From the NCBI RefSeq assembly GCF_000687475.1, contig NC_057317.1, forward strand, positions 5,890,501 to 5,954,500: a DNA stretch of 64,000 nucleotides, in the 5' to 3' direction. The notes under the pieces are model-generated. The model was not told where the DNA came from. It did no database searches and worked only from the letters and a program-made list of their open reading frames with translations. Source of the stretch: Ustilaginoidea virens. Taxonomy: Eukaryota > Ascomycota > Sordariomycetes > Hypocreales > Clavicipitaceae. This document shows positions 47,051 through 56,699 of this stretch, in pieces (position 1 is the stretch's first letter; each line of letters starts with the position of its first letter). The position numbers and the translations under genes were made by a program.

Positions 47051-50000
47051 ATGGGCTGGGCAACCAGGCGCTTGCTTGTCCTTTTGAAAGTCCAAGCTCT
47101 ATGGGCTGGAGGGACGAGAGGTGATGATGTATGCTCAGGAGATGTCATTGTCAATCTCCTGCCGCTGCAGGTGTTTTGCGGGGGAACCACCTATGGAGTA
47201 ATGGGCGCCCAGTATGTATTCCCATTGCAGTTCCCAAGGGAAACGTGACTGACCAGGTGATCCGACAGCACCAGCACGAGATGCCAGACCGGAGCCTACG
47301 TGACCGTCACTCAACCGCTGCCTGGCACCGCCACGGCAGGAACCACGATAACAATCCCCCCAAGTGGAACCGTTCTGGGTTCAGTGATTATCCAGACACC
47401 GACAACAACATCGCCCAGCCAGGGGTGCGACCTCCCGAACACCCTCCCGGGCTTCCAGCTCTATGGATGTGCGATTTCCGCAGCCGGCTTCCCCGGGTTC
47501 GTTAAGATCAGCACAGACAAGGCAATGGACCTTGGCAAATGCGCTGCCATGTGCACGACTCGTTTTATAGGAGTCTACAATAGGCAAGTCGTGAATATAG
47601 TGCGAACACAATAAGAGGACTTATACTAATAGTTAAGAAGCGACTGTTATTGCGGAGATATACTAGACATCACTTTAATAGTCAACTCAAAGAGCATCTG
47701 CAATATGCCATGTCCGGGAAATAATAAACAGTGCTGCGGAGGACAAAACATTCAGAGGAGGTCAAACTTGAAGCGGCAAGCAACAGATTTGACCACCATC
47801 GGATTATCTATGTATCAGCGCCAGTCAGATGAAACAGGTAATAATAGTGCCTATGTTACTATAACTCGACCAATCAGTGGATCGGTTACAGCACCAACAA
47901 CCATTACCATTCCTCCCAGCGGCACGAACCCCGGAAGCATCGTTATTGTTACGCCACAAGCTACAGGCATGGTTACATTTACACAAGCATTTAGCGGCTC
48001 ATTTACAGTACATACAACTATAACTATTCAGCCGAGCGGCACAAATCCAGGCAGCGTTGTCATCATTACGCCACCAGCTACCGGGCCATATATAACAGTG
48101 ACACAGCCTCTTACCGGTACTAATAGCGTTGCCACAACTATGACTATTCCACCGAGCGGAACTAACCCAGGCAGTGTAATTATCATTACGCCACCAGCTA
48201 CCGGGCCATATATAACAGTGACACAGCCTCTTACCGGCAGTAATAGCGTTGCTACAACTGTAACTATTCCCCCTAGCGGAACTAACCCAGGCAGCGTAAT
48301 TATCGTTACGCCGCTAGCAACAGTGTCTTTCGTGACAATTATACAGCCTCTTACCGGTACTTCTAGCGTTGCTACAACTATAACTATTCTCCCTAGCGGA
48401 ACTAACCCAGGCAGCGTAATTGTTCTTACGCCTTTAGCCACCGGGCCATATATAACAGTGACACAGCCTCTTACAGGTACTAATAGCGTTGCTACAACTA
48501 TTACTATTCCCCCTAGCGGAACTAACCCAGGCAGCGTAATTATCGTTACGCCGCTAGCAACAGGGTCTTTCGTGACAATAACACAGCCTCTTACCGGTAC
48601 TTATAGCGTTGCTACAACTATAACTATTCTCCCTAGCGGCACCAACCCAGGCAGCATTATCGTCATTACGCCACCAGCAACCGGGCCCTATGTGATAATT
48701 ACACAAGCTTTCTCCGGTACTAATAGCCTGCCTACTACGATGACCATCCCACCAAGTGGCACTAATCCAGGCAGCGTTGTCATCATTACGCCACCAGCTA
48801 CCGGGCCATATATAACAGTGACACAGCCTCTTACCGGTACTAATAGCGTTGCTACAACTATAACTATTCCCCCTAGCGGAACTAACCCAGGCAGCGTAAT
48901 TATCGTTACGCCGCTAGCAACAGGGTCTTTCGTGACAATTATACAGCCTCTTACCGGTACTTCTAGCGTTGCTACAACTATAACTATTCTCCCTAGCGGA
49001 ACTAACCCAGGCAGCGTAATTGTTCTTACGCCTTTAGCCACCGGGCCATATATAACAGTGACACAGCCTCTTACAGGTACTAATAGCGTTGCTACAACTA
49101 TTACTATTCCCCCTAGCGGAACTAACCCAGGTAGCGTAATTATCGTTACGCCGCTAGCAACAGGGTCTTACGTGACAATAACACAGCCTCTTACCGGTAC
49201 TTATAGCGTTACTACAACTATAACTATTCTCCCTAGCGGAACTAACCCAGGCAGCGTAATTGTTCTTACGCCTCTAGCTACCGGGCCATATATAACAGTG
49301 ACACAGCCTCTTACCGGCAGTAATAGCGTTGCTACAACTATTACTATTTCCCCTAGCGGAACTAACCCAGGTAGCGTAATTGTTGTTACGCCACTAGCAA
49401 CGGGGTCCTACGTGACAGTTATACAGCCTCTTACCGGTACTAATAGCGTTGCTACAACTATAACTGTTCCCCCTAGCGGCACCAACCCAGGCAGCATTAT
49501 CGTCATTACGCCACCAGCAACCGGGCCCTATGTGATAATTACACAAGCTTTCTCCGGTACTAATAGCCTGCCTACTACGATGACCATCCCACCAAGTGGC
49601 ACTAATCCAGGCAGCATTATCATCGTTACGCCACCAGCTACTGGGATATATATAACGGTGACACAGCCTCTCACTGGTACTAATAGCGTGCCTACTACGG
49701 TCACTATCCTACCAAGTGGCACCAATCCAGGCAGCGTCATTGTAATCACGCCACTAGCAACGGGGTCCTATGTGACAGTTATACAGCCTTTCAGTGGTAC
49801 AAATAGCATTCCTGCGACAGTCACTATCCCTCCTAGCGGCACCAACCAAGGCAGCGTGGTTATCGTTACCCCCCCGGCCACGGCTGCGTCATACGTGACA
49901 GCTACTCAGCTATTTAGCGGCTCCATCACAGTCCCTACGACTATAACAATTCCACCAAGTGGGACAAATCCAGGAAGCGTTATTATTATTACACCGCCAG

Positions 50001-53000
50001 TAACAGGACCCTATATCACAATAACACAGGCATTTAGCGGCTCTATAACTGTACCTACAACCGTTACGATTCCTCCCAGCGGAATATATCCAGGTAGCGT
50101 AATTATCATAACGCCTCCAGCTTCAACAGGACTGTACGTTACGGTTACCAAGGCGTTCAGTGGCCTAGTTACAGTTCCTACGACAATGACAATCCCTCCC
50201 AGCGGCACGAACCCAGGCAGCGTCGTTATCCTTACGCCGCCGGCAACTGGTCCGTACTATGTTACTATAACGCAGCCGATTTCCGGCACAAACAGCGTTC
50301 CTACCACAGTCACTATACCACCTAGTGGGACCAACCCAGGCAGCGTGGTTATCATTACACCGCCGGCTACGGTTGCGGCATACTTGACGATTACCCAGGC
50401 ATTTAGCGGCTCTCTCACAGTTCCTACAACAATGACTATCCCTCCTATCGGTACAAACCCTGGAAGCATCGTCATCATTACGCCGCCGGTTACAGGGCCC
50501 TATGTGACATTGACACAACCATTTAGTGGTTCAGTTATAGTGCCTACAACTATGACGATCCTTCCTTCCGGTACAAACCCAGGCAGTGTTATCATTATTA
50601 CACCACCAGCGGTTACAGGATTATATGTGACTATAACACAACCTTTTAGCGGCTCTATTACGATGCCTACTACCGTTACTATTCCCCCTAGCGGCACCAA
50701 CCCAGGCAGCGTGGTCATTTTAACGCCACCAATTTCAGCAGGAGGACAATATGTGACAGTTACCCAGCCCTTCAGTGGCTCAGTAACAGCGCCAACAACC
50801 ATAACTATCCCTCCCAGTGGAACTAATCCAGGAAGCGTGGTCGTTATAACGCCGCCGGCTACAAGTGCATCATACGTGACAATTACTCAGCCATTCAGCG
50901 GCTCAGTAACAGTGCCTACGACGATGACAATCCCTCCTAGTGGAACTCATCCAGGCAGCATGGTTATCATCACGCCACCTGTAACTGGGCCCTACATAAT
51001 TATTACACAGCCTATTTCCGGCACCAACAGCATTCCTACTACAGTAACTATTCCCCCTAGCGGCACTAATCCCGGCAGCGTTATTGTTATTACGCCGCCG
51101 TCAACCGGGCTCTATGTGACATTTATACAAGCTTTCTCTGGTACAAATAGCGTTCCTACTATAGTCACTATTCCCCCTAGTGGGACTAACCCAGGCAGTG
51201 TTATTATTATTACGCCGCCGTCAACCGGGCCCTATATTACCATGACACAGCCTTTCTCTGGTACTAATAGCGTTCCTACTACGGTCACTATTCCACCTAG
51301 TGGGACTAACCCCGGCAGTGTTATTATTATTACGCCGCTGGTAACTGGGCCCTATATTACAATCACACAGCCTCTATCTGGCACTAATAGCGTTGCTACT
51401 ACTATAACTATTCCTCCGACCGGCACTTATCCAGGCAGTGTGCTAGTCATTACGCCCCCGGTAACTGGGCCCTATATTACAATTACACAGCCTCTATCTG
51501 GTACAAACAGCGTTCCCACTACGGTCAGTATACCACCTAGTGGCACTAACCCAGGCAGCGTGGTTATTATTACGCCGCTAGTAACTGGGCCCTATATTAC
51601 AATTATACAGCCAGTTTCCGGCACAAATAGTGTTCCTACCAGAGTCACTTTACAACCCACCGGTACCAACCCAGGGAGCGTTATTATCATCACACCACTA
51701 GTTACAGGCTCGTATGTGACTATAACCCAGGCATTTAGTGGCTCTATTACAGTACCTACTACTATAACTATCTCCCCTAGCGGTACAAACCCTGGCAGTG
51801 TGGTTGTCGCTACGCCGCCGGGTATAGGGTCTTACGTGACTTTAACTCAGCCATTTAGTGGTTCTATCACAGTACCTACAACGGTGACAGTTCCTCCCAC
51901 TGGTACAAACCCAGGAAGTGTTATAATTATAACGCCAATAAGTTCATTAGGGGGCTACGTAACAGTTACCCAGGCATTTAGTGGCTCTATTACAATACCT
52001 ACGACAATAACGTTGCCTCCGAGCGGCACAAATCCAGGTAGTATTATAATTATTACACCAACTAGTTCGACTGGAGCTCCTTATATAATAGTGACCCAAC
52101 CATTCAGCGGCTCTTTTACAATGCCTACAACAGTTACAATTCCTCCTAGTGGCACAAATCCAGGTACCGTTATAATTATTACACCAACTGGTTCGACCGG
52201 AGCTCCTTATGTAACAGTGACCCAACTATTCAGTGGCTCTCAAACAGTACCTACAACAGTTACAGTTCCTCCTAGTGGCACGAATCCAGGCAGCATTATA
52301 ATAGTAACACCGACAGGTTTGACTGGCCCGATAACAAGCGCACCGTATGTGACCCTAACTGTAGGTGTTTACGGCATTTCAGTAACTACCACTATTACTA
52401 TACCGCCCTATGGAGCTTCTCCTGGAACTATTATGATCCAGACTCCAGTAGCACAACCAACAGGACCATATATTACAATTACTCAAGGTGTTCTTGGTCT
52501 GTCATCCACAACGACCATTACAATTCCGCCTACTGGATCCTTACCAGGAACGGTAATCGTAGAAACTCCGGCGACAATCACACCAACGGCGACAGGTCCA
52601 TATATTACAGTAACTCAAGCTGTTATTGGGCTTAATTCAACTGCTACAATTACAATTCCTCCTACTGGCACTATTCCTGGCACAATTATTATTGAAACGC
52701 CACCTGCAGCAATTACTGGACCATATGTGACAATCACACAGGCTGTTATTGGTTTAATTCAGACAATTACGATTACTATACCCCCTACAGGAACATTACC
52801 AGGTACAATTCTTATAGAGACTCCACCAGCATCATACGTTACTTTTATGGAGCAGCTTAGTGGAAATAATACTGTGCCTGCGACTACTACAATTGTGGCT
52901 GCAAGTGGTACTTTCCCTGGCACTATACTTATTCAGACACCATACTCGACTCCTGGATATGTAACTGTAACAGTAGGTTATGCTCAGAATATTACCACAG

Positions 53001-53689
53001 CTATAGGACCTATGACAAGGACTATTACTCCATTAGGATCTATATCTGGAACTGTTCTTATAACCACACCATCTTGCACGCCTGGCGTAACATGGGGCTA
53101 TTATGGCCTGGCTGAGGGTGCATATAATGTACGCGCAGCTGGTGTAGTTCCTGATAATCCAAATAATGGAAACTATCTAAACTGGTTTGATCCTGCTATT
53201 GTACTATCAGGACAAATTGCCTCAGTATCTGGTGTAACTAATGTTATTGGACTCTCCCTCCTTGGCATGAATAATTACCCAGTAGTAGTTTATACTCGAA
53301 TAGTTCCCCGTATGTATTCGTCGGTCGTTCAACATGTTGGATACTTCCACCCTGCAGTTACAGGCCGCTATATATTCTCTGGGATTGGGAATGAAGGAAT
53401 AATAATTTGGCTCGGGAGTAATGCAGTATCAAGTTGGACTGGCGCTAATCCTTTTTTACGACCAGATGGAAATTCGTATACAGCTACTTATGATGCTATT
53501 GCAGGTACTTACATTCCCTTTAGACTTTTATTTGTTAACGCTCAATCGTCCCTTGTATTATATTTTAACTTGACGGATCCTAATGGGAATATTATTTCAT
53601 CGTTTTGGGGTAATTCAATTACTCCTATCTCTGGTGACCAGTTTGTAACAGGCTGTACTGGTCTAGCGCCTATCTCTGTTAATAGATAG
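47051..53689 (+). CDS. giant WSC-repeat-GLEYA cell-surface adhesin
   Basis: Three exons: 47051-47211, 47269-47583 and 47641-53689, giving 2174 residues. Both introns are 57 bases. The first is GT-AG (GTATGT, branch CTGAC). The second is GC-AG with the strong donor AG|GCAAGT and a TACTAAT branch. MGWATRRLLVLLKVQALWAG resembles a secretion signal. One repeat unit (about 64-98) precedes a WSC domain (about 115-217: GFQLYGC, MDLGKCAAMC, SDCYCG, CPGNNKQCCGG, LSMY) with a small insert. About 43 tandem 40-residue Thr/Ser/Pro-rich units follow (229-1970), then a GLEYA domain (about 1971-2174: CTPGVTWGYYG, YFHPAVTGRYIFSG, IIWLGSNAVSSWTGAN). WSC and GLEYA are carbohydrate-binding types; such proteins act at the fungal wall in adhesion. 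No GPI signal is seen. Codon use is AT-richer than in the genes to the left. The first exon is the least certain part. Confidence 0.85.
47852..53073 (+). repeat. coding minisatellite, 120-base unit, about 43 copies
   Basis: The unit encodes about 40 residues with the pattern YVTVTQPLTGTNSVATTITI then PPSGTNPGSVIIVTP plus a short linker. Units between 48,061 and 49,860 are nearly identical and keep exact 120-base spacing; later units drift and gain or lose codons. Blocks recur at 600 bases (48,301 and 48,901) and 840 bases (48,661 and 49,501), showing segmental duplications. Confidence 0.95.
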
Positions 53690-53773
53690 GGATATGAAAT
53701 ATAAATACTATTAATTACGAAATTAAAAGTCAATTAAAGATAGGCATGCTTTAAGAGAATTATAAATTACAGT

Positions 53774-54146
53774 TGGAATCACATTAAGGAATACCCAGTA
53801 TACGTAAGGTCGCGCGCGTGGTATCAGGTACCGTGTGGTCACTGATTAAAGGTATGGTTCCTCTTTGATTATGACTGTGACCATCTATCTAGGAAAGGAA
53901 GGAAAAGGGGGAATTACACGATGTGGACTTTTGTGCGTATGCCGCAGTGACGTGCGGTGGTGCGGCTCTGCGGGCCGCCCATGCACCCAATCAGAGCGCA
54001 GGGAAATGCGGGGCCACCAAGTGTACAGCGGCACGCATGTCACGTGCACAGCGACGTGCAACGGCACATCTGTCGCAATGCCCAATTGAGGGGGCAATTG
54101 CGACGGCGATTCCAATACTGGGCAGTCTCTCTCTTTATTAAGCAAA
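53774..54146 (-). mobile_element. LTR copy 1, probably a solo LTR of the copia family
   Basis: Aligns with 60,036-60,393 over the whole length: TGG....ACATTAAGG..TACCCAG at one end, the shared core GGTCGCGCGCGTGGTAT, then AATTACACGAT, GTCGCAAT and GCGATTCC near the other end. It starts 85 bases after the adhesin stop. Both copies have the same orientation. Since copy 2 lies at the 3' end of a reverse-strand copia pol, I take copy 1 as a solo LTR read on the reverse strand. Confidence 0.6.
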
Positions 54147-54720: not shown

Positions 54721-56059
54721 GTAATTATCAGTATTATCGTTGTATAATAGCTATATTAGCAGTAAATCTAGAACCGCCTCCACCCCCCCCTCACCACTAT
54801 TAGCACAGCCTAATGTTCCTAATCTTTTTAAGCCTCATAAGCAATATAGCTATTATAAGAGAGATAAGCCCTTATCTGAGTTTAAAGGGGCGAGAAATCT
54901 AAATAAGCTTATCTAGAATTATCTGGACTACCGGTAGCGAATCTCTTCGGTATATTTTTTTTGCTACTTTTTAGAGAATAATTCTAATACTTCTCTTCTT
55001 TTTATAAATAAGCCGGTTATCGATAAGCCGGTTATCGAATATTATAGAGCGAATTAAGAGTATATTATATAGGCAGAAGCGTGATATTATTAAGCTAGCA
55101 TCTCTAAAGCATCAAAAAGTCATATATAGTATTCCTATTATGTCTCAACTAGATACACTATAAGATCCTATATTGCTATTTCGACTAATTCTTCTATTAT
55201 AAGCTCTAGGCACATCCTTTATATATATTAGTTAATTTATTAATAGGGCTAGACGATTAATATTATAATTCTTCTATAAAGGCATTTGCCCTAACGATAC
55301 TCCTACTTAGGTATAGGCATATCGGCAGTAGGTATTTACTCTTACCATTAGTAGATATATTATATAAACTCTAATATATATATATATATAGGATATTATT
55401 TGGCGTGAATATTAGGTTTAATGCCGAGCTGGCGAGTAGCCCTTAGCTACTCTTCTATTATCTGCCCTTCTGCAACTAAATTAATATAATTAGCCTTTAT
55501 CTTAGCCTCTATTTTAGCCTCTATCTCGGCCTCTATCTCGAGATAGTAATAGTAATAATAATAATATTAGTTTCTTTATTTGTAGCATATATAGAATTGC
55601 TTATGCTACTATATATCGACATCCCGATAGCCTATACATTTATTATACTAGCACTATTAGTAGTATAAACGATTAAGATAAATAATAAGTCTGCTTAAAT
55701 TATCACAATATTTAGCCTAGGTCTTAATATTTTACAGCAAATAGTGACAAGGTTCCTTATTGCTGCAATTATAGGTATAAGCATTCTACTGCTAATTCTA
55801 CGCCAAAATTATCGTTTTTTAGCAGTAGTACTGTTGCAAAATGGTGATTCAGAACACTGTTGGAAATGTACTGGATACCGACAGTGGCGTACAAGGCGTT
55901 GCAGAATAAAACAAAGAGCTGGTTAAAGATTTAAAGCGCATAAAAGGTTGACCAGAGCAAAGATGTTAGGGAAATCTGATTCTAATTGTTGGTGACTATT
56001 CTAGCTAGAAAGAGGGAATTTTAGGCATATTTCTACTATCTTGAAAAAGTGGTTGAAAA

Positions 56060-56525
56060 TAATGAAAAACCGCAAAAATAGCGAAAAACCCGACGAAAAG
56101 TCGGTCTGCCCAACCGTGCCCAGTCTGTGCCCAATATCCTACCCAGTGCCTACCCAATGCCTACCCAACCAAGCCCAGTGGCTTGTAGCGGTGTGCCGGA
56201 TGCCCTATAACAGCCTGCCGTACGGGCCGGAAGCCCTATATCGGTCTGCCGTAAATGACCGGTGTAGCGGGTGACTGTATGTAGAAGGCCGAAAGTGCTG
56301 GTTTGCCCATTTGGTAATCCCGTAGAAATGCGCCGCCTGTTGTGGGCCCTGTGGCCCGCTGTGACCGGCCGCTGTGGCCGGCTGTGGGGCGCTGTGCCGG
56401 TGCCGTGACCGGCGCTGTGGCCCACTGTAATCGGCGTTGTGGGGCGCTGTGCCCCACCATAGCGCCTGGTATAGCCACCGCGATATCTCAACGTAGAGAC
56501 GTCGTACGGTAGCGAGACCAGTACC
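56060..56525. repeat. GC-rich island with short tandem units
   Basis: Inside AT-rich DNA, about 450 bases are much richer in GC. The left part repeats CCTACCCAATG-type units (56,130-56,175). The right part repeats GCTGTGGCC/GCTGTGGGGC-type units (56,335-56,460). No protein is supported. It escaped the mutation that changed its flanks or was inserted later. Confidence 0.65.
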
Positions 56526-56699
56526 AAAATACAGCTAAAAAGGCGCTGATTTCAACAAGTACTAATAATCTATTTATATTCTCGTCTTAATAGGGTTAAA
56601 GTTCACAGCAAATAGTAGCTACCTTAGTAGTATAACCTAGGGAGTTTATTAGAAACCCTATATTTATAGGTAATTTATCTTTAATAGCAATTAACGAAT

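Follow-up and report, generated by a model that had tools for sequence, protein, structure and literature searches.

How can a long secreted adhesin that carries no GPI signal be held at the fungal cell wall, and how might it be let go? This question is raised by a gene at 47051..53689 of the window, a stretch of 64,000 nucleotides from Ustilaginoidea virens (contig NC_057317.1, positions 5,890,501 to 5,954,500; all features below lie on its forward strand unless stated otherwise), which encodes a WSC domain, a long array of tandem repeats and a C-terminal head with a GLEYA domain. The reading that we favour, at a probability of roughly 50%, is that of a secreted modular adhesin without GPI linkage, in which the WSC domain would act as wall anchor and would be nicked by Kex2, and in which the stalk, held or released, would carry a swappable head.

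The gene was modelled with three exons (47051-47211, 47269-47583 and 47638-53689), from a start ATG at 47051 to a stop codon at 53687-53689. Its spliced translation comprises 2175 aa with no internal stop; the single gene proposed in a preliminary description of this DNA was thus retained, with a corrected length (2174 residues had been given). Intron 1 (47212..47268; 57 nt, GT-AG) has counterparts in the models of the paralogs described below, intron 2 (47584..47637; 54 nt, GC-AG) lies inside the WSC domain, and both introns are present in 15/18 modelled paralog loci. The GC donor of intron 2 contrasts with the GT donor of all 16 paralog models that include this intron, whose placement was made by a script that slightly favours GT. 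At one locus, L017 (C4:2695000-2702600), intron 2 is absent and the WSC domain forms one open frame, unlike in the other models. Exon 3 alone is open over 1994 codons, counted from its first ATG. Compared to the paralog L020, mismatches by codon position amounted to 73/49/196, and the predominance of third positions (196/318) indicates that the frame is constrained as protein; compared to L029, 283/454 mismatches fell on third positions. A hydrophobic stretch at the N-terminus (aa 1-24; 47051..47122) represents a putative signal peptide, judged by hydropathy only (maximum 11-residue mean of 1.9 within the first 35 aa). For the last 30 aa the same maximum was 1.44, with a polar end (...PISVNR), which by this heuristic is too little hydrophobicity for a GPI-like signal, as the preliminary description had also noted.

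The domain order proposed earlier, with WSC near the N-terminus and GLEYA at the C-terminus, was confirmed by Pfam. The WSC domain (PF01822, E 7.3e-12, aa 134-194) extends over 47440..47821 when its presumed last strand, placed by alignment to eight ordinary WSC domains, is included, and the head occupies 53072..53686 (PF10528 match at 53324-53578, E 3.3e-17, 63 bits vs a cut-off of 26.2). The stalk between them (47837..53071) consists of 43 tandem repeats of 39-45 aa, on which hand split and HMM agree and which match the approximately 43 units of about forty residues reported before; a further unit in front of the WSC domain brings the total to 44. Ser and Thr make up 32% of the stalk, charged residues number 8 in 1741, and Cys is lacking. 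Flocculin (PF00624, PF13928) or ALS (PF05792) repeats were not listed for exon 3 in Pfam at E up to 1, where weak matches were possibly filtered. Matches to FBPase and Bactofilin in the stalk lay below the cut-offs and were discarded as composition artefacts. An aliphatic run of at least four residues occurs in 36/44 units of the window gene; an amyloid-like stalk as a rule of the family was rejected, because such runs occur in 0/43 units of L032. Across the family, the nearest relative of a repeat unit belongs to the same gene for 443/666 units, compared to only 17/44 in the window gene, where 10/44 units are nearest to units of L020. Unit numbers range from 25 to 47 in the 17 paralogs counted (L018 left out), with 44 in the window gene and 13 in L035, a relative introduced below. 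Dinucleotide ratios are shifted in the repeat array, and no claim of repeat-induced mutation is made, as repeated codons can give a like shift. AlphaFold models of a three-repeat segment, for which the repeats of the gene itself served as the alignment, and of the head alone were unusable, with pLDDT values of 37 and 29, respectively.

The arrangement had been described as an oddity of this one gene, a view that the rest of the genome contradicts. When the own genome (37.16 Mb) was searched with a 73-aa query from the paralog L019, covering the WSC half with the insert and strand discussed below, the WSC module was found at 19 places at E 5e-9 or better, including the window gene, and the next matches were ordinary WSC domains at E 2e-4 or worse. 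The 18 other loci were named L017-L034, and L035 was added as a relative without the module. A GLEYA C-terminus is present in 11/19 module genes (the window gene and 10 paralogs), with two GLEYA matches each in L027 and L033, and a DUF5648 C-terminus in 4/19 (L019, L021, L026 and L029). L022 and L023 end, by eye and with no Pfam match, in DUF5648-like repeats. L025 shows no head in its open frame. All 8 DUF5648 matches in the genome fall within the adhesin family. Module copies form clusters on contigs C1, C2, C4 and C6, and one end of C6 has five copies inside 160 kb. A search with residues 1-232 returned no relative from a protein collection in which fungal proteins are presumed to be few or absent. 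Four individual loci depart from the general layout. L018 (C4:2703000-2711000) carries the WSC module with insert and RRQ, followed by a Ser/Pro-rich C-terminus (DPYPSSQASS units) and no 40-aa repeat stalk; L019 (C2:6591400-6600400) has a DUF5648 head and a frame broken within the early repeats; L022 (C6:148300-157300) shows PAN hits in the head region ahead of the DUF5648-like repeats mentioned above; and L035 (C2:5881500-5891000), just upstream of the window, combines GLEYA with its short array.

The module differs from ordinary WSC domains by its ending. A CCGG motif (aa 191-194; 47732..47743) is invariant in the 19 family rows, compared to CGG, CGA or CGS at this position in the other WSC domains of the genome, and is separated from the last WSC strand by a family-specific insert, which measures 20 aa in the window gene (47744..47803) and 14-25 aa in 19/19 copies. 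In ordinary WSC domains the gap between CGG and strand, measured by eye, is 3 aa in 18/20 and about 9 in one, with one unresolved, and in the alignment with the eight ordinary domains the insert falls exactly between CCGG and the last strand. This presumed beta5 strand (LSMYQR, aa 215-220; 47804..47821) aligns with LSVY/LSLW of ordinary WSC domains. The insert of the window gene contains KRQ (aa 204-206; 47771..47779), a Kex2-type dibasic site. Within the insert, no columns other than Arg and Gln are invariant (19/19), and the two are preceded by Lys or Arg in 18/19 copies, the exception being L026, whose GRQ is not dibasic; since the paralogs are related, [KR]RQ in 18/19 does not amount to 18 independent observations. 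The comparison set comprised 32/39 WSC hits (12 from the family and 20 others; the 7 dropped had matches ending before CGG), and no dibasic pair was found between CGG and strand in the 19 of these 20 others in which the gap was resolved. From the presumed cut to the strand there are 7-9 residues in the 18 dibasic copies, and 7/19 copies, including the window gene, have an additional dibasic pair (KRS or RRS) further upstream in the insert. All cysteines of the module precede KRQ in the window gene, which together with the Cys-free stalk suggests that no disulfide joins the two sides near the cut. The genome has a single place with a kexin-type P domain. L036 (C5:32000-41999), close to the beginning of C5, contains a frame with two WSC matches, of which the one that reaches CGG shows ordinary spacing and no insert.

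A structural frame for these observations is provided by yeast Wsc1, in which the strand after CGG is beta5 and the sheet order is b1-b5-b3-b4-b2 (PMC9024836), making beta5 an inner strand. The family strand probably corresponds to this beta5, and the location of KRQ within an insert suggests that it is exposed. From these sequence features we infer that kexin (Kex2) most likely cuts between KR and Q during secretion, ahead of the last WSC strand, which would leave the WSC body and the stalk as two chains held together by beta5 alone, as the inner strand packed in the WSC sheet. The N-terminal WSC domain would most likely grip beta-glucan of the fungus's own wall, the almost uncharged, Ser/Thr-rich stalk of 43 units would push the lectin-like GLEYA head beyond the wall, and the head would bind its target. 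Stalk and head would stay in place in the resting state and come off under force or on unfolding, and swapping heads between paralogs would alter the target but not the anchor. SiWsc3 has been called a beta-glucan-binding lectin, and the Wsc1 study saw no evident pocket for a glycan in single WSC domains (PMC9024836), so one WSC domain may bind glucan weakly. In its strictest form, this scheme describes a naturally split WSC anchor, with an adhesin of ~2000 residues tethered by one non-covalent strand and with a tether that is releasable family-wide and carries swapped heads, and we put this form forward tentatively, at less than an even chance. The preliminary description was right to consider non-covalent wall attachment as a possibility, but it had missed the conserved dibasic site, and its single chain, correct for the gene, may be two chains in the mature protein.

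The conserved dibasic site would also fit if the WSC module were a removable prodomain, which Kex2 would cut off and which would leave after helping in folding or transport. The mature protein would then comprise only stalk and head, kept at the wall through the stalk if at all. The long, aliphatic and Ser/Thr-rich stalk could indeed bind or aggregate by itself, and cutting by Kex2 near the N-terminus accompanies the shedding of Flo11 (PMC8617999). However, the predicted cut is inside the domain, ahead of its last strand, and not between domains; the strand pattern [LFIM][ST][LVM][YF] has been kept on the stalk side of the site, a feature of no use to a prodomain that is thrown away; and strong aliphatic runs are absent from some paralog stalks, such as that of L032. 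We consider a removable prodomain rather unlikely. Slightly less probable still is that no cut occurs and that the insert is a surface loop, with another use for the conserved RQ and one chain on an intact WSC anchor. This would agree with L026, in which the second basic residue is missing, yet an insert that is otherwise variable in sequence and length keeps a basic residue before RQ in all other copies, and secreted fungal proteins can be Kex2 substrates, T. reesei xylanases being named among the proven ones (PMC2515848).

Under the favoured reading of a nicked WSC anchor, the head is the part that would determine the target. Its best PDB match was Cea1 (E 1.4e-4), Epa1 is also a sequence relative, and the CBL2-type Asn is retained (FVNA). 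The Ca-binding DcisD position reads Asn-Glu in the window gene, compared to Asp-Asp in 9/14 aligned GLEYA heads of the genome; classical Ca-dependent lectin binding may therefore be lost, and the ligand of the head or its need for Ca may differ. The relation between heads and anchors was evaluated on an N-terminal tree of 17 modules (L018 and L019 left out), with the GLEYA heads split into two types by our own division and L022 and L023 labelled as DUF5648. The head labels need 9 changes on this tree, compared to a mean of 9.0 after shuffling, and a number as low was reached in 130/200 shuffles; the tree is weakly resolved, with 10/14 inner branches open. The branch that unites the window gene with L020, L022 and L023 (87/85) contains three head kinds, and one starred branch (96/93, nine rows) contains all of them. 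At the DNA level, L020, which ends in the other GLEYA type, and L029, which ends in DUF5648, share 78% and 70% identity, respectively, with the window gene over ~1.5 kb in the distal part of its stalk (from 51407 to about 52930), and the head block of the window gene has no DNA match to either of the two. Taken at the sequence level, an exchange of heads between paralogs that keep the anchor module and stalk is well supported.

The lone repeat unit before the WSC domain (aa 61-98; 47288..47401, by hand split and HMM) had been taken as a sign that the domain was inserted into the repeat array or that the array jumped over it. A unit at the same place was found by HMM in 5/17 modelled N-termini, including the window gene, and appears degenerate or absent by eye in the remaining ones. 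In addition, the DNA of the lone unit matches the array of L035 (77.0 bits) better than any part of its own array (35.6 bits at best), and its GC content is 0.58 vs 0.47 in the array. Both proposals were rejected in the form given, as the unit before WSC is shared with some paralogs and the lone unit lies nearer to the L035 array than to its own. Exon 1 is nearest to the GC-rich paralogs L034 and L025 and the WSC part nearest to L022 and L023, on short stretches in both cases, and within 47051-47850 the GC content drops from 0.55-0.58 in exons 1-2 to 0.42 where exon 3 begins. It is possible that recombination occurred near intron 2 and, as far as such short stretches can indicate, that the 5' end is a mosaic derived from a GC-rich paralog.

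Downstream, the proposed transposon border was recovered: an AT-rich repeat block begins ~80 bp past the stop codon (about 53772), and further repeats follow. The first interspersed repeat (53772..54146, no strand assigned) has many copies, mostly at 69-83% identity among the matches listed. Further on, among the matches listed for an element at 56000-56558, at least 29 other copies share 95-99% identity and another shares 91%, which suggests that the element was recently active or homogenised; one copy is located at the very start of contig C4. The GC donor in intron 2 and the location at a repeat border make expression of the gene uncertain. It is nevertheless highly improbable that the window copy has been silenced or is decaying while its paralogs perform the function. 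The nearby AT-rich block, the GC donor, the changed Ca site of the GLEYA domain and the broken frame of the relative L019 speak for such a loss, and the intact 1994-codon frame of exon 3 and the prevalence of third-position changes relative to both L020 and L029 speak against it.

GLEYA adhesins without GPI linkage are already known, and a review describes such proteins without GPI signals and notes that a C-terminal binding domain suggests an alternative wall attachment (PMC6308950). No paper in the literature searched, which included few subscription papers, joins WSC to GLEYA together with a conserved nick site, and this absence is weak evidence. The text available of papers naming both GLEYA and WSC treats them as separate entries or families or has WSC only in a reference title, and "WSC domain" and "Kex2" did not co-occur in the literature searched. 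The family places a domain type reported to bind beta-glucan opposite a lectin head, with an almost invariant protease site inside, so that the question of how non-GPI adhesins are kept at the wall and released could be put to a simple test of cutting and holding. If true, the proposed mechanism would be another way, beside GPI linkage, to fix and release fungal adhesins, and head swapping against a constant anchor and stalk would be a clear-cut example of how adhesins diversify in a filamentous fungus.

In Schizosaccharomyces pombe, adhesins of the GLEYA type (the Pfl flocculins) were reportedly described by Linder and Gustafsson in 2008. Similar to the window gene, they have repeats, a C-terminal GLEYA domain and no GPI signal, and they start with a signal peptide, for which the window gene has a putative counterpart, but the passages that deal with them describe no WSC domain or nick site (PMC13147542, PMC8621652, PMC6308950), and the repeats of the window gene match no flocculin model in Pfam. 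An expansion of GLEYA to nine genes has been reported for another filamentous ascomycete, the nematode parasite Drechmeria coniospora, in a paper whose main text, in contrast to our family, contains no occurrence of WSC (PMC4792172). The shedding of Flo11 involves Kex2, unlike the holding after the cut that is proposed here (PMC8617999). The Flo/Epa layout of GPI adhesins, with an N-terminal PA14/GLEYA domain and a C-terminal GPI anchor, differs from that of the window gene. The PA14/Flo5-type lectins (Cea1/KpFlo1 of Komagataella and Epa1 of Nakaseomyces) share the head family and the CBL2-type Asn, but Cea1 and Epa1 carry the head at the N-terminus and a GPI C-terminus, compared to a C-terminal head and no GPI-like tail here, and Cea1 uses Asp-Asp for Ca where the window head, with Asn-Glu, departs from DcisD. 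With yeast Wsc1 and SiWsc3 the anchor shares the Pfam WSC domain and the cysteine pattern, including a match to PDB chain 7pz2 (E 2.5e-5), which we take to be the Wsc1 entry. Ordinary WSC domains pass from CGG to the strand almost at once, whereas the window family has CCGG and the insert with the dibasic site. Ywp1 of Candida albicans, which to our knowledge is neither a WSC nor a GLEYA protein, differs by its wall-anchored core, and the likeness is one of mechanism only. It is cut by Kex2 near the N-terminus and its propeptide stays strongly bound (PMC6258133), similar to the cut and retention that we propose for the WSC anchor.
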